From: Paracoccus marinaquae
GTDB lineage: Bacteria; Pseudomonadota; Alphaproteobacteria; Rhodobacterales; Rhodobacteraceae
DNA: 64,000 bases
Reading direction: 5' to 3'
Assembly: GCF_018860165.1 (NCBI RefSeq)
Contig: NZ_JAHKNG010000001.1
Coordinates: 186,001 to 250,000 of the forward strand
Part shown: positions 1,469 to 64,000 of the stretch, piece after piece
How the letters are laid out: each line of letters opens with the position of its first letter
Position numbering within the stretch: the first letter of the stretch is position 1
Notes under the pieces: model-generated
Told to the model about the DNA's origin: nothing
Database searches by the model: none
The model's input: the letters and a program-made list of their open reading frames with translations, nothing else
Translations under genes and position numbers: made by a program

Positions 1469-1496
1469 GCGGGCATTCCTCCTAGATGCGGTTTCG

Positions 1497-2887: not shown

Positions 2888-2923
2888 GCGGCGGCACCTA
2901 GGGAGGAGGAGGGGTGCCGCCGC
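2888..2923 (-). ncRNA. CcsR-like unit 10 (last)
   Basis: An 11-bp perfect stem (2888-2898 with 2913-2923). The loop motif is at 2901-2909. Confidence 0.85.
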
Positions 2924-2930
2924 TCAACGC

Positions 2931-2955
2931 TGGCCCAGGGAGGAGGGTCGGGCCG
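2931..2955 (-). ncRNA. CcsR-like unit 9 (weakest stem)
   Basis: Only GGCCC/GGGCC (2932-2936 with 2950-2954) pairs clearly. The motif GGGAGGAGG is at 2938-2946. This may be a decayed unit. Confidence 0.6.
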
Positions 2956-2965
2956 CGTATGGGGT

Positions 2966-3002
2966 GCGGTGCGGGCCAGGGAGGAGGAGAGGCCAACACC
3001 GC
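2966..3002 (-). ncRNA. CcsR-like unit 8
   Basis: GCGGTG/CACCGC (2966-2971 with 2997-3002) and GGCC/GGCC (2974-2977 with 2991-2994) flank a 2x2 internal loop. The motif is at 2979-2987. Confidence 0.75.
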
Positions 3003-3005
3003 CAG

Positions 3006-3046
3006 CGATGCGGGCTCAAGGGGGGAGGAGAGAGCCCGTCGCATCG
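3006..3046 (-). ncRNA. CcsR-like unit 7
   Basis: CGATGC/GCATCG (3006-3011 with 3041-3046) and GGGCT/AGCCC (3012-3016 with 3033-3037) pair with a 3-base bulge. The motif is shortened to GGGAGGAG at 3023-3030. Confidence 0.72.
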
Positions 3047-3074
3047 GTTTGCCGCGAACAGGGCGGCTATGGGT

Positions 3075-3110
3075 GCGGCGCGGCCCCGGGGAGGAGGAGG
3101 GGCTTGCCGC
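3075..3110 (-). ncRNA. CcsR-like unit 6
   Basis: GCGGC/GCCGC (3075-3079 with 3106-3110) and GCCCC/GGGGC (3083-3087 with 3099-3103) form two stem segments with a small internal loop. The motif is at 3089-3097. Confidence 0.75.
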
Positions 3111-3112
3111 TG

Positions 3113-3150
3113 ACGTCCGGCCAGGGAGGAGGGAGGAGAAGGCCGGTCGT
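3113..3150 (-). ncRNA. CcsR-like unit 5 with doubled loop motif
   Basis: CCGGCC (3117-3122) pairs with GGCCGG (3141-3146), extended by ACG/CGT across one unpaired base on each side. The loop contains GGGAGGAGGGAGGAG, so the C-rich motif appears one and a half times. Confidence 0.78.
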
Positions 3151-3187
3151 GTTCGGGTGCCGCGAAACAGCGCGGCCATGTTCTTTT

Positions 3188-3223
3188 GCGGCGACCCCTT
3201 GGGAGGAGGAGCGGGGTCGCCGC
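3188..3223 (-). ncRNA. CcsR-like unit 4
   Basis: An 11-bp perfect stem (3188-3198 with 3213-3223). The loop motif is at 3201-3209. Confidence 0.85.
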
Positions 3224-3228
3224 GGCGA

Positions 3229-3262
3229 TGCTGGACCCCAGGGAGGAGGAGGGGGTCCGGCA
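3229..3262 (-). ncRNA. CcsR-like unit 3
   Basis: An 11-bp stem (3229-3239 with 3252-3262), one pair of which is G-T (wobble or mismatch depending on strand). The loop motif is at 3241-3249. Confidence 0.82.
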
Positions 3263-3271
3263 CGGTCTTTG

Positions 3272-3310
3272 GGCGGCATCCTCCGGGGAGGAGGAGAGGA
3301 GGATGCCGCC
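3272..3310 (-). ncRNA. CcsR-like unit 2
   Basis: A 13-bp perfect stem (3272-3284 with 3298-3310), the longest in the array. The loop motif is at 3286-3294. Confidence 0.85.
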
Positions 3311-3312
3311 GG

Positions 3313-3341
3313 TCCCGGCCCCGGGAGGAGGTGGGGCGGGA
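3313..3341 (-). ncRNA. CcsR-like unit 1 (closest to DUF1127)
   Basis: The outer stem TCCC/GGGA and inner stem GCCCC/GGGGC (plus-strand letters) pair with one bulged G. The loop holds GGGAGGAGG at 3323-3331, which reads CCTCCTCCC in the transcript. Confidence 0.75.
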
Positions 3342-3351
3342 AGGCTATGGC

Positions 3352-3579
3352 TTACTTCGACGTCCCCCAGGCGGCCTCATGGGCCAGACGGGTGATCATC
3401 GAGCGGCTGATTCCCAGATCGTCGAGATCGCGAGTGGTCAGCGCATTCAATTCGCGCACGGTCTGGCGATAGACGGCATTGCGGGCGCGGTTTTCCTGGA
3501 AGCGCTGAACCGCAGCCATCAGCCGGCCACGCAGGCCGGGTGCGGCCGTGCTGTTCTGGGCCTGGACGATAACGGTCAT
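3352..3579 (-). CDS. Small DUF1127 protein, CcaF1-like
   Basis: A 75-residue basic protein starting MTVIVQAQNSTAAPG with the DUF1127 core in its C-terminal half (RELNALTTRDLDDLGISRSM, about residues 42-61), ending HEAAWGTSK. AAGGAA lies upstream of this ATG, and the longer upstream frame is not needed. In Rhodobacter the homologous gene ccaF1 is cotranscribed with the CcsR sRNAs and its Arg-rich protein binds RNA and affects sRNA maturation. Here the array starts 10 bases after the stop, so one transcript for both is expected. The gene is divergent from mrp. Confidence 0.88.
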   Translation of the reverse strand: MTVIVQAQNSTAAPGLRGRLMAAVQRFQENRARNAVYRQTVRELNALTTRDLDDLGISRSMITRLAHEAAWGTSK

Positions 3580-3911
3580 TGCTCTGTTCCTTTCTGTCTT
3601 GCGCCTTGCCCAGATGGCCCGGCGCCTTCGATGGGTTAAAGATGGCGCTAATGCTGCAGATGCACAATGGATGGATCCAAAATGCTGCCATGCAGCAATT
3701 GCATGGCTCATTCTCAGGATTGGCCGGGTTGATACTGAATCGAAAAAACAATTTTACCTTGAGGCAAATGTTTGCGATCACGTTCCGGCCCGGTCAAAGC
3801 CCTGATTTGAAAGCGCTTGGCGGGGTTTCCGGCCAAACGTCGCAAGGGGGTGGCGGTGGCTGGCGCAGCCGTGCATCATGCCGCCCGCCACAGTCGACAC
3901 GAGGTGATAAC
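3580..3911. other. Divergent intergenic region between DUF1127 and mrp
   Basis: 332 bases without a credible gene. The stretch 3650-3780 is AT-rich and contains short palindromes (TGCTGCCATGCAGCA at 3682-3696). The part next to mrp is GC-rich and ends with GAGGTGA, the ribosome site of mrp. Apart from the candidate promoter at 3751-3780, I see nothing definite. Confidence 0.6.
3751..3780 (-). promoter_or_regulatory. Candidate promoter of the DUF1127-sRNA transcript
   Basis: On the minus strand TGATCG (3780-3775) and TAAAAT (3756-3751) are 18 bases apart. They sit in an AT-rich stretch inside an otherwise GC-rich region. TGATC with an 18-base spacer resembles the sigma-E-type -35 of Rhodobacter rather than a clear RpoH promoter, so the sigma factor is uncertain. 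The expected start near 3744 gives a leader of about 165 bases. Confidence 0.25.
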
Positions 3912-4988: not shown

Positions 4989-5327
4989 CGGCGCGCCCTG
5001 TCATGGGGTGGGTGTCGGGTGGGAATTTCCGGGGCGGCTGGGAATTCAGGGCACTGACTGGGCGCCGGCGATCCCGGATACGTGATTCGGCGTGATTCCA
5101 GCGGGATTCCACGTGAATTCTGAGCTGAGGTCTGTTATCGCGGTATTTCTGCGGGCACTTTCTGGGACAGCGCGGATTGCGCGGGAAAAACCGCACATTT
5201 CTATATGTGTGGTGTATGTGTTATGCGTACACAACATGTGGCGTGTTCTTGCGCCGCGAGCCTGCCGTTTGTTATGAACGTCTCGGTTTTATCAAGGTAA
5301 TTTCACCCTAAGTGGCGTAGAAATCCA
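4989..5327. other. Intergenic region upstream of the dcw leader RNA
   Basis: No coding region is credible between mrp and the dcw leader. Bases 5080-5340 are clearly richer in A and T than the rest of the window, which fits a promoter zone for the dcw cluster. Bases 5004-5063 contain several scattered TGGG words but not in the regular 10-base spacing of known MraZ boxes. Confidence 0.6.
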
Positions 5328-5356
5328 TTGCTTCCCGCAAATTCCCATGTCACAAC
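5328..5356 (+). promoter_or_regulatory. Candidate promoter of the dcw leader RNA
   Basis: TTGCTT (5328-5333) and CACAAC (5351-5356) are 17 bases apart; each matches the consensus at three or four positions. A start near 5363 would give a transcript of about 213 bases up to the terminator at 5533-5575. That is close to the roughly 206 bases I recall for UpsM in R. sphaeroides. Confidence 0.28.
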
Positions 5357-5362
5357 TTGATC

Positions 5363-5575
5363 ACGGAGACGGGGAGTGAAGGGGCAACAAGACCCCGCAA
5401 GGCGACGCAGGTTTCATGCAGGCACCCGTTTTCCAATATTGATCCGCCCGCGCGTGCGAGCAGCACCTCCCCCAGGTGGCGCGTGACAGGGTGGACGACC
5501 CCGAAAGGGGCCCAGGCAATGGGAACGAGGGCGGCGGATCGGGCAGTGGCAGCGGCCCGGTCCGCCTTTCTCTTT
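5363..5575 (+). ncRNA. UpsM-like leader sRNA of the dcw cluster
   Basis: In Rhodobacter sphaeroides the dcw cluster is preceded by UpsM, an abundant sRNA made from the 5' leader of mraZ by partial termination. Here the same place holds a structured, non-coding stretch. It includes GGGG/CCCC at 5381-5396, a hairpin with loop CCCCC (CACCT/AGGTG, 5464-5478), a CCCC-GAAA-GGGG tetraloop hairpin at 5499-5510, and finally a strong terminator hairpin. The call rests on position, structure and terminator, not on sequence alignment. The 5' end is inferred. Confidence 0.5.
5533..5575 (+). terminator. Rho-independent terminator inside the mraZ leader
   Basis: GGCGGATCGGGC (5533-5544) pairs with GCCCGGTCCGCC (5555-5566) as a 12-bp stem with one wobble and a 10-base loop. 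TTTCTCTTT follows. It lies 38 bases before mraZ, so full termination would silence the operon; partial termination or processing must let transcription through, as reported for UpsM. Confidence 0.75.
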
Positions 5576-5613
5576 CGGGCGACCGGAAGAGTGAGCAGTG
5601 AGGGCGGGCCGGC

Positions 5614-55006: not shown

Positions 55007-56977
55007 CTAATCGGCCGCCGGGGGAGGAGGGGGGGCAGCCATGCCGCCCTGTCCGTTCAGGTCGGCCAGGAAGGCATCGAGGCTGGCATCGCCCGGATTG
55101 ACCGCCCGTGCCCTGTCGATCACCGCGCGCGCGGCCCGTGGCCCCCCGGAGAGCGCGGCGAGCCGCGCCAGCATGATCCAGGCATCGACGCGCTGCGGGT
55201 CCATCTGCACGACCTCGTCGAAGGCCCCCGCGGCGGCGGGGAAGTTGCGCAGGGTCAGCGCCGTGCCCGCCAGTTGCAGATGGGTCTCGGGAAAGTCCAG
55301 CCTCTGCGACACCGCCTCGCGCCATTCGCCGAAGGCGGCCCGCATCGGTGCCTGCGCCGCTGCGGGCATCTGATCCGGTGGCATCATCAGCAGCTCACGC
55401 GCCGCCTCGATCCGGACCGTGCGGATCGGATCGTCCAGCAGACGGGCCAGACGCCCGGCCCGCTCGGCCGGCGGGGCCAGACGTTGCAGCCCGGCCGCCG
55501 CGGCGCGCACCACCGGGTCGGGATCATCAAGCAGCGGCACGAGGCGGGTGGCGGTCGTGGGGCTGTTGGAGGCCCGAAGCAGCCAAAGGGCAGTCGCGCG
55601 CACGATCCCCGGCTGGGCCTGGTCCTCGGCCAGGGCGGCCAGATCGGTGGCTGCCGCCACCGGATCCTGCCGTCCGCGGGCCAGCACCGTTCCGTAATGC
55701 GGGCGGCTTTGCGAACCGTCCGGGAACCGCTCTGCGATCGCGGCTGCGGCCCAGTCCGGCTTGCGGTCCCGGTGGCAGTCGGTGCAGGCGTCGCTGGCGC
55801 CGGTCTGATCGGCCAGATCCGGGCGCGGGATGCGGAAGGAATGGTCCCGCCGCCAGTCATTGCCCATGTAGACGCGCTGCGGCATGTGGCAGCTGGCGCA
55901 TTGCGCGCCCTCGCTGCCGGGTTCGTGAAAGTGATGCTCGGGGCTGTCGTATTCGGCGGGCTTCAGGGTCGGAAAGCGGGGATTGCCGGCGGGGTTGTGG
56001 CACTGGGTACACAGCGCATTGCCCTCGGCCAGCGTCTCGATCGCATGCGGGTTGTGGCAGTCGACGCAGCCGACCCCCTTGTCATACATCTTCGATTGCA
56101 GGAACGAGCCATAGACATAGACCTCGTCCTCGATCTGGCCGTCGGCCTGATACAGGCCCGGACGCAGCAGGGCGAGGTTATAGGCGTCATGGTAGGGCGT
56201 GCCGGGCAGCGGGTTGCCGTCCAGATGCGACTCGCGCCGGGAATGGCATGTCGCGCATTGCTGGATCGCGGCCTCGCGGTCCGAGAAATCGACCCGGAAA
56301 CCATAATTCGGCGGCGGGTCCTGCGTGGTCGCGGCCCGGGCCCAGTCCAGATGCTGTCGCGCCGGCCCGTGGCAGGCCTCGCAGCCGACGCCGATCTCGG
56401 CCTGGGTCGAGGCATAGGTTTTCGTCCTCGGGTCGAAGTTCTTTTCGTAGCCGGTGGCGTGACATTCGGCGCAGCGCGCGTTCCAGGTCTTGTAGGGGCC
56501 GGTCCAGTGCAGCCCGTCGTCGGGCGGCAGGTCCTGATCGGGATAGAGATGGAACCAGTCGCCCTTCTCGGTATCCCAGACCACGTCAAAGCTTTGCAGC
56601 CGGCCGGGTTCGGTTTCCAGCAGATATTGCTGCAGCGGCGCCACGCCGGCCACCGACTGCACCGGATAGCGCGTCGTCTTGCCGTCCTTCTCGTAGACGG
56701 TGATGACATGGGTGCCGTCCGGCTCGACACTGAACCGGGCGGTCATGCCGTCATGGACGAATTCGGTATCGTTGAAATCGGCAAGGATGTTCGCGGCCGT
56801 TGCCTCGGTCCAGGCGAGGGCGTGATCCGAGCCGGACCAGGCCTCGGCAGCCTCGGCATGGCAGGCGGTGCAGCTGGCCGAGCCGACATAATCCTGCGCG
56901 TCCTGGGCCCGTGCGGCCGGGGGCGCAGCGATCAGGGCGACCAGCATCGTGGTCGCAAACCAGGTCAGCACATGCAT
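55007..56977 (-). CDS. Octaheme c-type cytochrome with HEAT- and TPR-like C-terminal part
   Basis: 656 residues. A signal peptide (cut near residue 24) precedes eight heme sites CTACH (36-40), CAECH, CEACH, CATCH, CVDCH, CTQCH, CASCH, CTDCH within the first about 430 residues. HEAT-like repeats follow ([46 protein letters not shown]), then TPR-like helices with [13 protein letters not shown], and a Pro-rich end. [18 protein letters not shown] is a known opening of cytochrome c554-like families. The ATG at 56977, 6 bases behind GACGAGG, is preferred over the one at 56983. The substrate is unknown; adjacent to amine and nitrogen genes. Confidence 0.85.
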
Positions 56978-57996: not shown

Positions 57997-60171
57997 ATGA
58001 CCATGACCGAGACAGGATTTGGCGGCATCTGTGATCGGGAAGGAATGCGGGTTGATGCAGGCCTCGCCCGTTTCATCGAAGAGCGGGCATTGCCCGGAAC
58101 CGGGATCGACCCGGCGCAGTTCTGGTCGGGCCTCTCGGAACTGGCCCATGTCTTCGGCCCGCGCAATCGGGCGCTGCTGGCCCGGCGGCAGGATCTGCAG
58201 GACCGTATCGACGACTGGCACCGCCGTCATCGCAACCGCCCGCATGACCGCGAGGGGTACAAGGCCTTCCTGAAGGAGATCGGCTATATCGCGCCCGAAG
58301 GTGGCGATTTCACCATCGCGACGGCCAATGTCGACCCCGAAATCGCCCGCGTGCCGGGGCCGCAACTGGTCGTGCCCTCGACCAATGCGCGTTTCGTGCT
58401 GAACGCCGCCAATGCCCGCTGGGGCAGCCTTTACGATTGCCTTTATGGCACCGACGCCATGGGCCTGCCGCTGCCTTCGGGCGGGTTCGACAATGGCCGC
58501 GGCGCCCGCGTCGTGTCGCGCACGGCCGTCTTCCTCGATGAGACCTTCCCGCTGACCGCGACCAGCCACGGCAAGGCTGCGCGCTATGCCGTCCGCGACG
58601 GCGCGCTGGAGGTGGGTGGCTCGGCCCTGAAGGAGCCGGGCAAGTTCGTGGGCTTCACCGGCGCCGCCGACAATCCCGACTCGATCCTTCTGCGCAATCA
58701 CGGGCTGCATGTCGAACTGGTCTTCGACCGCAGCCATCCGATCGGCAGCCAGACCTCGTCGGGTCTGGCCGACGTGCGGCTGGAATCGGCCATGTCGGCG
58801 ATCATTGACTGCGAGGATTCGGTCGCCTGCGTCGATGCCGAGGACAAGGTTCTGGCCTATGGCAACTGGCTGGGCTTGATGCAGGGCGACCTGTCCGAAC
58901 GCTTTGAGAAGGGTGGCAGGACCATCACCCGCGCGCTGCATGGCGACCGCGCCTTCACCGCGCCCGACGGCACCCCGTTCAGCGTCAAGGGCCGCGCCCT
59001 TCTGCTGGTGCGCAATGTCGGCCATCTGATGACCAACCCGGCGATCCACGACCGCGACGGCAACGAGATCTTCGAGGGGCTGATGGACGCGATGGTGACC
59101 ACGCTGATCGCCATGCACGATCTGAGAAAGGACGGCGGCGACCGCAACTCGGTCACCGGCTCGGTCTATGTCGTCAAGCCCAAGATGCACGGCCCCGACG
59201 AGGTCGCCTTCGCCGACGAGATCTTCACCCATGTCGAGAAGGTGCTGGGCCTGCCGCAATACACGGTCAAGCTGGGCATCATGGACGAGGAGCGCCGCAC
59301 CAGCGTCAACCTGAAGGAATGCATCCGCGCCGGGCGGAACCGGGTCTGCTTTATCAATACCGGCTTCCTCGACCGCACCGGCGACGAGATCCACACCTCG
59401 ATGGAGGCCGGCGCGTTCAGCCGCAAGGATTTCATCAAGCGCAAGAGCTGGATCATCGCCTACGAGAACCAGAACGTCGATATCGGGCTGGAATGCGGGC
59501 TGGCGGGCAAGGCGCAGATCGGCAAGGGCATGTGGGCGGTACCCGACCGCATGGCCGCGATGCTGGAACAGAAGATCGAACATCCCCGCGCCGGTGCCAA
59601 TTGCGCCTGGGTGCCCAGCCCGACCGCGGCCACGCTGCACGCGCTGCATTACCACAAGGTCGATGTGCTGGCCGTGCAGCAGCAACTGGCCGCGGGCGGA
59701 CGGCGGGCCTATGTCGATGCGCTGCTGGACATTCCGCTGGCCGCCTATCAGCAATGGTCGCCGGCCCAGGTCCGGCGCGAGGTGGAAAACAACGCGCAGG
59801 GCATCCTTGGCTATGTCGTGCGCTGGATCGACCAGGGCGTCGGTTGTTCCAAGGTGCCCGATATCAACGATGTCGGCCTGATGGAGGATCGCGCGACCTG
59901 CCGTATCTCGGCCCAGCATATCGCCAACTGGATGCATCACGGCGTCGTCGGCCGCGACGAGGTGACGGCGATCATGCAGCGCATGGCCGAGGTGGTGGAC
60001 CGCCAGAACGCGGGCGACCCGCTGTATCGTCCGATGGCGCCGGGCTTTGACGGCATCGCCTTCCAGGCCGCCTGCGATCTGGTCTTCGAGGGCCGCGTGC
60101 AGCCTTCGGGCTATACCGAGCCGGTGCTGCATGCCCGGCGGCTGGAACTGAAGGCGCGGGCGCGCGGCTGA
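57997..60171 (+). CDS. glcB: Malate synthase G
   Basis: 724 residues (E. coli GlcB 723). It opens [20 protein letters not shown]. Active-site segments include TRALHGDR, the aspartate-bearing [33 protein letters not shown], and the C-terminal acidic base segment [15 protein letters not shown] with the conserved downstream helix. It condenses glyoxylate and acetyl-CoA to malate in glyoxylate/glycolate metabolism. The much longer upstream frame is a chance extension. Confidence 0.97.
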
Positions 60172-60179
60172 GACGCGGG

Positions 60180-60200
60180 GCCGGGGCGAACGGTCCCGGC
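60180..60200 (+). terminator. Hairpin after glcB, candidate terminator
   Basis: GCCGGG (60180-60185) pairs with CCCGGC (60195-60200) around a 9-base loop, 8 bases after the glcB stop, followed by GACCCTCTC rather than a T-run. It could mark the 3' end between convergent glcB and the Lrp gene. Confidence 0.3.
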
Positions 60201-60296
60201 TGACCCTCTCGCCCTTGCCGGCGGTGGGACGGGGCCGGCAGGCCCTTGAGACTGCCGGATCGGAAAGGGTAGGCCGCTTGTGGCGGGATGCGGCGT

Positions 60297-61945
<1,649 letters not shown>

Positions 61946-62255
61946 GCGGATCGTGGCGCCGCGCCGGGGCGGGATGAAAAAAACGTCTGGAATTGTCGCG
62001 CGGACGGCGAATGCCGGGACGGTGGCGGGGCAAAACCGGCCGCGCGGGAACCTGGGTTCGCTGCGCCGCGGCGAAAGCCATATAATTTCCCCGGACCGGG
62101 CCGGGCATTTCGGCCCGATCGCCCCGGATTCGGCCTTTTGCGCCCCGAGCCACGGTTGAATGTCCCAAATCACGGGTCTATGGGCGGGCCGACGACACGC
62201 GCCGCCAGCCGGCATAGGCCGCCGACCGATTCCCTGAGCAACCGAGCATTCGATC
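61946..62255. other. Region between trxB and sat/cysC with a leader of about 160 bases
   Basis: 310 bases without a gene. A perfect -10 (TATAAT) lies at 62081-62086; the transcript would have an unusually long GC-rich leader of about 160 bases with several small hairpins (for example CCGGGCCGGG / CCCGG pieces at 62095-62135). I recognise no riboswitch consensus. Confidence 0.5.
62081..62086 (+). promoter_or_regulatory. Probable -10 element of the sat/cysC promoter
   Basis: TATAAT, a full match in a very GC-rich stretch. The best -35 (TTCGCT at 62057-62062, 18-base spacer) matches the consensus at only three positions, so an activator may be needed. Confidence 0.4.
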
Positions 62256-63965
62256 ATGACCCATCACAACCAGACGCCGATCCCCGAACTCTATGTTTCC
62301 GAAGACGCTGCCGCGGCGCTGAAGCACGAGGCGGGCAACATGCCCAGCTGGGATCTGACCCCGCGCCAGCTTTGCGATCTGGAACTGCTGATGAATGGCG
62401 GCTTCAACCCGCTGAAAGGGTTTCTGACCGAAGCCGACTATGACGGCGTCGTCAACGAGATGCGGCTGCAATCCGGTGCGCTGTGGCCGATGCCGATCAC
62501 GCTGGATGTCAGCGAGAAATTCGCCGAAGGGCTGGAGCCGGGCACCGATATCGCGCTGCGCGATGCCGAAGGGGTGATCCTGGCGATCATGTCGGTCACC
62601 GACAAATGGGTGCCGAACAAGTCGCATGAGGCCGAGAAGGTCTTTGGTGCCGACGATCTGGCCCATCCGGCCGTCAACTACCTGCACAACACCGCCGGCC
62701 CGGTCTATCTGGGCGGTCCGGTGAAGGGCCTGCAGGCACCGACGCATTACGATTTCCGTGGCCGCCGCAACACCCCGAACGAATTGCGCGCGCAGTTCAA
62801 GAAACTGGGCTGGACCCGCGTCGTGGTGTTCCAGACCCGCAACCCGCTGCACCGCGCGCATCAGGAACTGACCTTCCGCGCCGCCCGCGAGGCGCAGGCC
62901 AACCTGATGATCCACCCGGTCGTCGGCATGACCAAGCCGGGCGATGTCGACCATTTCACCCGCGTCCGCTGCTATGAGGCGGTGCTGGACAAATATCCTT
63001 CGGCCACCACCACGCTGTCGCTGCTGAACCTGGCGATGCGCATGGGCGGCCCGCGCGAAGCCGTCTGGCACGGGCTGATCCGCAAGAACCACGGGGCCAC
63101 GCATTTCATCGTCGGCCGCGACCATGCCGGCCCCGGCAAGAACAGCGCCGGCGTGGATTTCTATGGCCCCTATGACGCGCAGGAACTGTTCCGCAAGCAC
63201 GAGGCCGAGATCGGCGTCGAACTGGTCGATTTCAAGCATATGGTCTATGTGCAGGAGCGTGCCCAGTACGAGCCCGCCGACGAGATCGAAGAGGGTGTGA
63301 CCGTCCTGAACATCAGCGGCACCGAGTTGCGCCGGCGCCTGCGCGAGGGGCTGGAGATCCCCGAATGGTTCAGCTTCCCCGAAGTCGTGACGCAGCTTCG
63401 CCGCACCTCGCCGCCGCGCGCGCGGCAGGGCTTCACGGTGTTCTTCACCGGGTTGTCGGGCAGCGGCAAATCGACCATTGCCAACGCGCTGATGGTCAAG
63501 CTGATGGAGATGGGCGGCCGGCCGGTCACGCTGCTTGACGGCGACGTGGTCCGCAAGCACCTGTCGAGCGAGCTGGGCTTCAGCAAGGAGCACCGCGACA
63601 TCAACATCAAGCGCATCGGCTATGTCGCCAGCGAGATCACCAAGAACGGCGGCATCGCCATCTGTGCGCCCATCGCGCCCTATACCGCGACCCGCCGCGC
63701 CGTGCGCGAGATGGTCGAACAATACGGCGCCTTCGTCGAGGTTCATGTGGCGACCGCGCTGGAGGAATGCGAACGCCGCGACCGCAAGGGCCTCTACAAG
63801 CTGGCGCGTGAGGGCAAGATCAAGGAATTCACCGGCATCTCGGACCCTTACGAAGAGCCGAAGCAGCCCGAATTGCGCGTCGACACGCAGGATGTGGACG
63901 TGGACAGCTGCGCCCATCAGGTGTTGCTGACACTGGAAAACATGGGGCTGATCGGCCTGAACTGA
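62256..63965 (+). CDS. sat: Bifunctional sulfate adenylyltransferase / adenylylsulfate kinase
   Basis: 569 residues. The N-terminal PUA-like and adenylyltransferase parts have Q193-T-R-N-P-L-H-R-A-H202 and G287-R-D-H-A-G-P-G294, the ATP-sulfurylase signatures. The C-terminal CysC-like kinase part starts near 392 with P-loop G399-L-S-G-S-G-K-S-T407, then [16 protein letters not shown]. Fusion of the two steps makes PAPS from sulfate and ATP for assimilation. The start [12 protein letters not shown] lies behind a long leader. Confidence 0.95.
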
Positions 63966-64000
63966 GCGCTCGCAAGCAGCCTTGAAACGACGAACGGCCC

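Follow-up and report, generated by a model that had tools for sequence, protein, structure and literature searches.

A ten-hairpin array behind a DUF1127 gene of Paracoccus marinaquae is built of five CcsR-type dyads

Introduction

How should a run of ten small hairpins with nearly identical loops, lying directly behind a gene for a DUF1127 protein, be counted? The run lies in Paracoccus marinaquae, on the minus strand of the 64,000-nt stretch analysed here (the window; contig NZ_JAHKNG010000001.1, positions 186,001 to 250,000). It recalls Rhodobacter sphaeroides, in which CcsR1-4 are reported to come from the 3′ UTR of ccaF1, to be transcribed together with that gene from an RpoHI/HII promoter, to be released by RNase E with CcaF1 being needed, and to be bound by Hfq. 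The CcsR RNAs are described as part of the singlet-oxygen response via RpoHI/HII, with flhR as a reported target and with effects on C1 metabolism, pyruvate dehydrogenase and glutathione. A first-pass annotation of the window had set ten units against these four and seen a large expansion. We asked what the unit of the array is, how large such arrays usually are, and what might drive the locus.

Results

Ten motif hairpins follow the DUF1127 gene

By sequence and predicted fold, the minus strand carries ten separate motif hairpins at 3341-2888, and the first starts 10 nt beyond the stop codon of the DUF1127 ORF. Exact CCUCCUCCC is present in nine of the ten loops, the other being a variant, and exact CCTCCTCCC likewise in nine, with the near version CTCTCCTCCCCCC in hairpin 7 (3046-3006); the ten consecutive hairpins of the first-pass annotation are thus there, with a variant loop in the seventh. 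The gene ahead of them (3352-3579, minus strand; start picked by eye) encodes a ccaF1-like protein of 75 aa that scores 47.3 bits against the PF06568 profile (cut-off 23.3), so that the array does follow a DUF1127 gene on the same strand, as had been proposed. This gene is presumably the first part of the transcript that carries the array. Its closest protein match, among the best 80 of 89 relatives, is from Paracoccus onchidii (88% identity). An Rfam search of the 64-kb window matched nothing at the gathering score.

Genome-wide (4.18 Mb, both strands) there are 28 CCTCCTCCC sites, nine of them in the array. The remaining 19 are scattered, 18 on other contigs and one in the window at 55022-55030 (minus strand). 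The latter was considered as a further unit and dropped, as it folds into no such hairpin and matches the covariance model R1 (described below) weakly (E 0.14). Arrays at the other two DUF1127 genes of the genome were also ruled out, their contigs (C68 and C155) being without any CCTCCTCCC site.

The predicted fold of 3345-2885 has an energy of -228.2 kcal/mol, compared with -174.8 ± 5.0 kcal/mol for 100 dinucleotide shuffles (z -10.7), none of which was as stable. All ten hairpins stand separate when the pairing span is limited and the motif cores are kept open, and likewise in an unrestricted fold of 512 nt, whereas in the unrestricted fold of 3345-2885 hairpins 5 and 6 are enclosed in a longer-range helix. 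When 3′ arms were exchanged among the ten hairpins, the mean energy changed from -19.3 to -10.6 kcal/mol and only 5 of 90 exchanges matched or exceeded the stability of the native hairpin, which argues that each arm mostly suits its own partner.

The hairpins are paired into five dyads

The linkers between successive hairpins measure 2, 8, 4, 37, 2, 28, 3, 4 and 1 nt, so that odd-numbered linkers span 1-4 nt and even-numbered ones 4-37 nt. On this alternation the ten hairpins form five dyads: hairpins 3341-3313 and 3310-3272 (dyad 1, 3272-3341), 3263-3228 and 3223-3188 (dyad 2, 3188-3263), 3150-3113 and 3110-3075 (dyad 3, 3075-3150), 3046-3006, with the variant loop, and 3002-2966 (dyad 4, 2966-3046), and 2961-2925 and 2923-2888 (dyad 5, 2888-2961), all on the minus strand. 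The fold lengthens hairpin 9 by a few bases, which explains why the last between-dyad linker is short. The 37-nt and 28-nt linkers each contain a motif-free spacer hairpin on the same strand, GCCGCGCTGTTTCGCGGC at 3159-3176 and GCCGCCCTGTTCGCGGC at 3051-3067, similar to spacers in relatives and perhaps a processing signal. By position, the candidate cleavage linkers are CAAAGACC between dyads 1 and 2 (3264-3271), AAAAGAACATG after dyad 2 (3177-3187), ACCCATA after dyad 3 (3068-3074) and ACCC between dyads 4 and 5 (2962-2965), all on the minus strand; ACCCCAT is the most frequent short between-dyad linker among relatives.

A covariance model built here (R1), used rather than the published cuckoo model, was derived from the terminal dyads of 35 loci, including dyad 5 of the window. 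Searching the 64 kb with R1 found the five dyads of the array (E ≤ 1.4e-4): dyad 5 at 83.9 bits, a match that was itself part of the training set, dyad 1 at 53.8 bits (3344-3273), dyad 2 at 53.8 bits, dyad 4 at 44.3 bits and dyad 3 at 38.1 bits (3152-3080). The other two of the seven matches listed, at 55045-54985 and on the opposite strand at the array end, have E 0.14. Ten independent CcsR units are ruled out by the dyad rule, by the five R1 matches and by the description, in one sentence of a paper, of the R. sphaeroides CcsR RNA RSs0680a as having two motif hairpins (PMC3927594). With two hairpins per CcsR RNA, ten hairpins correspond to about five such RNAs, and the comparison of ten with four does not apply.

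The same terminal dyads, from 35 loci (34 distinct) chosen by hand for diversity from 50, made up the covariation alignment A1. Compensatory change, with both sides altered, was seen at 18 of 21 pairs; 93.0% of cells were paired. All five observed values were higher than in every one of 500 shuffles, and pairing dropped to 35-56% when the partners were shifted by 1-3 columns. Among relatives the stems vary and the loops are nearly constant (37 of 42 arrays used).

Arrays of this size are usual among relatives

A DUF1127 protein search of named genomes gave 79 loci, from the best 80 of 89 relatives. The first 63 (L059-L121) come from Paracoccus and, judged by record titles, largely from other Rhodobacterales, and they include five MAG records whose titles give Alphaproteobacteria or Croceicoccus; the last 16 belong to the Rhizobiales (Devosia, Pelagibacterium, Methylobacterium and one Rhizobiales MAG). 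At least two motif hairpins in a run on the DUF1127 strand were found at 60 of the first 63 loci, compared with none of the last 16. We parsed 58 arrays, namely that of the window and those of 57 of the 63 loci, six loci without a run of four motif clusters being left out. Ten hairpins were present in 14 arrays, 12 in 13, eight in six, 14 in five and 20 in one, and 44 of the 58 arrays hold 8-14 hairpins. The large expansion first read from the array is not supported: hairpins had been compared with sRNAs, and the five CcsR-type units of the window lie in the usual range. A record array size is likewise ruled out, by the 20 hairpins of P. saliphilus and by the largest array examined, with 26 hairpins, in genome G291 of another genus (L241).

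The number of hairpins was even in 45 of the 58 parsed arrays and odd in 13. In the 45 even arrays, to which the test was restricted because odd ones lack a fixed pairing, linkers of at most 6 nt made up 228 of 231 within dyads and 47 of 186 between dyads. Cereibacter changlensis, a member of the genus that now includes R. sphaeroides, has 13 hairpins with the same alternation (1, 56, 1, 39, ...). A genome of the same family (G336) carries eight hairpins in four dyads, with linkers of 6, 26, 3, 29, 3, 27 and 1 nt, behind a DUF1127-like ORF of 72 aa, the layout expected of CcsR1-4. The G291 array, also behind an ORF of 72 aa that is DUF1127-like by eye, breaks the dyad rule, with linkers of 0-13 nt and repeating blocks of three hairpins.

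In many Paracoccus arrays two dyads about 7 nt apart are followed by about 33 nt that hold a spacer hairpin ATAGCCGCC..GCGGC, and this order repeats, giving tetrads. In P. saliphilus (L073:3439-4114) repeats spaced 188 nt apart are 99-100% identical and are, judged by that identity, the product of recent tandem amplification or gene conversion. Together, the tetrads and these near-identical repeats make it likely that arrays grow by entire modules.

With an exact triple pattern, which undercounts arrays with long linkers or altered loops, arrays were found in 118 of 125 genomes of the genus and, under the same undercount, in 118 of 394 genomes of the family, sampled at about one per genus. Hairpin counts from this pattern were abandoned because spacer hairpins interrupt it. 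A class-wide R1 search found matches in 4 of 289 genomes, this one included, and recovered four of the five dyads here at E 0.001; as the model is tuned to terminal dyads and the filters were strict, this number is no measure of spread. A DUF1127 relative is encoded on 3 of 72,556 plasmid records. Two are Paracoccus plasmids (NZ_CP041044.1 and NZ_CP025584.1; L227 and L228), with five and eight motif clusters, respectively, behind the DUF1127 gene, which suggests that a plasmid can carry a second copy of the locus; the third has a single motif cluster about 800 nt away.

A VtlR-like box precedes an RpoH-like promoter

We aligned the upstream regions of 30 relatives with that of the window (14 rows displayed) and found a conserved TGCATGGCAGCATT ahead of TTGTGC...CCATCTT upstream of the DUF1127 gene. 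In the window the latter element, a putative RpoH-like promoter, occupies 3639-3667 on the minus strand, and we take its TTG-N19-CCATCTT (3667-3639) to fit the RpoH consensus. The distal regulator box TGCATGGCAGCATT (3681-3694, minus strand) is VtlR/LsrB-like: it shares 13 of its 14 letters with the VtlR motif of Brucella (printed as CAATGCAGCCATGCA; PMC12595884) when that motif is read as its reverse complement. A proximal TGCA-N6-GCAT (3651-3664, minus strand) has the LsrB form, a site of the TGCA-N6-GCAT type having been described for LsrB at the promoter of NfeR1 (PMC10746234).

Promoter counts covered 61 of the first 63 loci, L105 and L106 being too short. A VtlR-like box (at most three mismatches in 15, within 400 nt upstream) was found at 54 of these 61 loci versus 1 of the 16 others. 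TTG-N17-21-CCATnWT was present at 45 of the 61, and in all 45 the distance from box to TTG was 27-28 nt; the distal box together with TGCA-N6-GCR in the spacer occurred at 38 of the 61. In the whole genome the promoter box is the only exact 14-letter match to TGCATGGCAGCATT, and 56 sites match with at most two mismatches, compared with five for the reversed pattern. The DUF1127 gene on C68 has an upstream box with three mismatches, a weak match that 7 of 300 random stretches of the window equalled (two exact).

A LysR gene adjoins trxB in one Devosia and one Pelagibacterium genome, and by synteny we take that of Pelagibacterium to be LsrB. No LysR gene adjoins trxB in the window, by eye among ORFs of at least 120 aa at 59500-64000. 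With the LsrB-like Pelagibacterium protein as query, the best match in the genome was C100:102884-103750 (L221), at 44% identity over nearly the full length and 265 bits (next match 118 bits), with a well conserved DNA-binding part. Judged by this similarity rather than by a tree, this gene encodes a VtlR/LsrB-like regulator. Such a gene, together with a VtlR-like box at a fixed distance from an RpoH-like promoter, is apparently new for this type of locus, and LsrB has been described as restricted to Rhizobiales (PMC11975290).

Ribosome sites and the transcript end

The first-pass annotation had pointed to complementarity between the loops and the ribosome sites of pdhA, nirJ and an SDR gene (its names, with which we agree by eye). 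AGGAGG does precede all three, giving 6 nt of complementarity each; it is also an ordinary strong ribosome site and no evidence of targeting, and we dropped the three genes as special targets, having found nothing beyond such sites. GGAGGAG 3-10 nt ahead of ATG occurs at 80 sites in the genome versus 17 for the reversed pattern (the sites include some non-genes, some double counts and two inside the array), an excess that is expected for strong ribosome sites anyway. CcsR RNAs are reported to affect pyruvate dehydrogenase in R. sphaeroides. The AGGAGG of pdhA (window 1469-1490) is the same in 31 (counted by eye) of the 36 loci, the window included, in which a start was found among 64 examined, and a common strong ribosome site would explain this without regulation.

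Directly past the last hairpin, TTTT is present in 27 of 47 relatives (a fixed-position count, L076 being left out for Ns), so that in those relatives the last hairpin may also terminate transcription. A fold-based count of T-runs (7 of 47 arrays, the window included) was discarded because the fold often overran the hairpin. In the window the last hairpin, at which a ccaF1-CcsR locus would have its Rho-independent terminator, is present without a T-run; past it (2887-2870) the sequence is AACCCCCC, and read-through from the array towards rlmJ is possible.

Elsewhere in the window, about 5240-5613 is the region ahead of mraZ, where R. sphaeroides is reported to make the UpsM sRNA.

Discussion

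By sequence, the locus is of the ccaF1-CcsR ("CIN1", cuckoo) type, as had been suggested at first: the DUF1127 partner, the loop motif, the order of parts, the RpoH-like promoter and the paired architecture all agree. We think it very probable that this is the Paracoccus form of that locus, one transcript with a DUF1127 protein and five dyads that are cut apart and whose loops act on ribosome sites. This reading builds on the sequence, predicted fold, dyads, covariation and conserved promoter elements observed here. Partly by analogy with R. sphaeroides, we infer transcription, cleavage, target pairing and effect. The transcript would begin at the RpoH-like promoter, with the LysR-type box upstream, encode the DUF1127 protein and end in a 3′ UTR made up of five units with two hairpins each. 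RNase E and the DUF1127 protein would cut the single-stranded linkers between dyads, as proposed from R. sphaeroides, and so free about five sRNAs, similar to one another and each roughly 70-80 nt long. Every sRNA would display two CCUCCUCCC-type loops that may pair with the purine-rich, GGAGG-type ribosome sites in many mRNAs, which would then be translated less under stress. Because the loops are constant and the stems variable, repeats would raise dosage without adding specificities. The odd hairpin number of 13 of the 58 arrays and the lack of alternation in G291 count against an explanation based on dyads, and the missing T-run of the window counts against this reading as well.

Constant loops on diverse stems and copy numbers that are high and vary from 4 to 26 hairpins would also fit an RNA that works mainly uncut and multivalent, titrating the DUF1127 protein, Hfq or many mRNAs at once, a design with a parallel in CsrB. 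The 26 hairpins of G291 fit such an RNA better than they fit a cut one. CcaF1 is reported to bind RNA, and more CcaF1 to shorten the half-life of CcsR1 in R. sphaeroides; by one account DUF1127 relatives act protein to protein, and RNA binding by CcaF1 is documented (PMC12501420). We nevertheless consider an uncut array unlikely: the dyad rule and the longer between-dyad linkers suggest release of units, mature CcsR RNAs of R. sphaeroides are reported to be cut by RNase E, and NfeR1, which presents the same loops on one RNA of three hairpins, is described as acting in trans.

It would be quite surprising if the hairpins merely protected or ended the DUF1127 mRNA, with loops that regulate nothing. 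Stable 3′ hairpins slow decay and the T-run seen in relatives is terminator-like, but a terminator needs one hairpin, protection alone leaves varying stems with near-constant loops unexplained, and both CcsR and NfeR1 are reported to regulate in trans. We give hardly any weight to a mobile or palindromic REP-like DNA repeat that accumulated here by chance: the units share one orientation, sit behind DUF1127 and covary, and the other CCTCCTCCC sites of the genome are scattered. The direct repeats of some relatives, such as P. saliphilus, and the second copies of gene and array, some plasmid-borne, are what such a repeat would explain.

For the cut, two-hairpin units that we prefer, counting by dyads makes what looked like a record an ordinary case among related genomes, and it provides a unit by which loci can be compared. 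The survey suggests a regulatory RNA that is dosed by whole modules, and thereby a natural system for asking what sRNA copy number buys.

The promoter leads to a wider proposal, which we put forward tentatively and lean slightly towards doubting: a VtlR/LsrB-like LysR regulator and RpoH would directly drive the ccaF1-CcsR operon across Rhodobacterales, which with the Rhizobiales circuit would form one old alphaproteobacterial module, cast in Rhodobacterales as one transcript with dosage set by duplicated hairpin modules (up to 26 hairpins). A paper of 2015 reportedly, by its title, finds VtlR highly conserved among alphaproteobacteria. In that Rhizobiales circuit VtlR/LsrB acts on DUF1127 genes and on sRNAs of the aSD type. 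VtlR/LsrB-type regulators have so far been studied in Rhizobiales for host interaction, and the conserved box offers a direct test of whether they run a DUF1127/aSD-sRNA circuit in free-living Rhodobacterales.

Comparison with known systems

Among the papers that our literature searches listed, no title or displayed abstract covers the Paracoccus arrays, their dyads or a VtlR-type box upstream of such a gene, parts of which Billenkamp 2015, Reinkensmeier and Giegerich 2015 and Gruetzner 2021 may cover. Reinkensmeier and Giegerich reportedly defined cuckoo RNAs as 2-4 adjacent hairpins with CCUCCUCCC. The array shares with that family adjacent hairpins, the constant CCUCCUCCC loop and variable stems; it differs in having ten adjacent hairpins in five dyads, so that 2-4 fits only if each dyad is one RNA.

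The closest counterpart is CcsR1-4 with ccaF1 (RSP_6037) of R. sphaeroides, reported to share the DUF1127 gene in first place, aSD units in the 3′ UTR, an RpoH-type promoter (putative here) and two hairpins per unit. There are four sRNAs there and five dyads here; the array of the window also has two spacer hairpins, and its expression, cleavage and targets are predicted.

In Sinorhizobium meliloti, NfeR1 (alpha-r14 family) as well as SmelA075 and SmelA099 are described as having CCUCCUCCC in each loop on variable stems. NfeR1 also has an LsrB (LysR-type) box at its promoter, and its three redundant motif loops are reported to pair with the translation start region of ntrB and silence it. Unlike the array here, these RNAs have three hairpins (four in SmelA099), and NfeR1 is a trans-sRNA with its own promoter, not a product of a DUF1127 3′ UTR. 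The analogues also differ in chaperone: NfeR1 is reported to act without Hfq, CcsR to depend on it.

In Rhizobiales, the system of AbcR1/AbcR2 and VtlR/LsrB brings together the same kinds of parts, VtlR being reported to control the aSD-type sRNA AbcR2 and three DUF1127 genes. As described, the genes of that system are separate, whereas in P. marinaquae the protein and the sRNA units lie in one presumed transcript.
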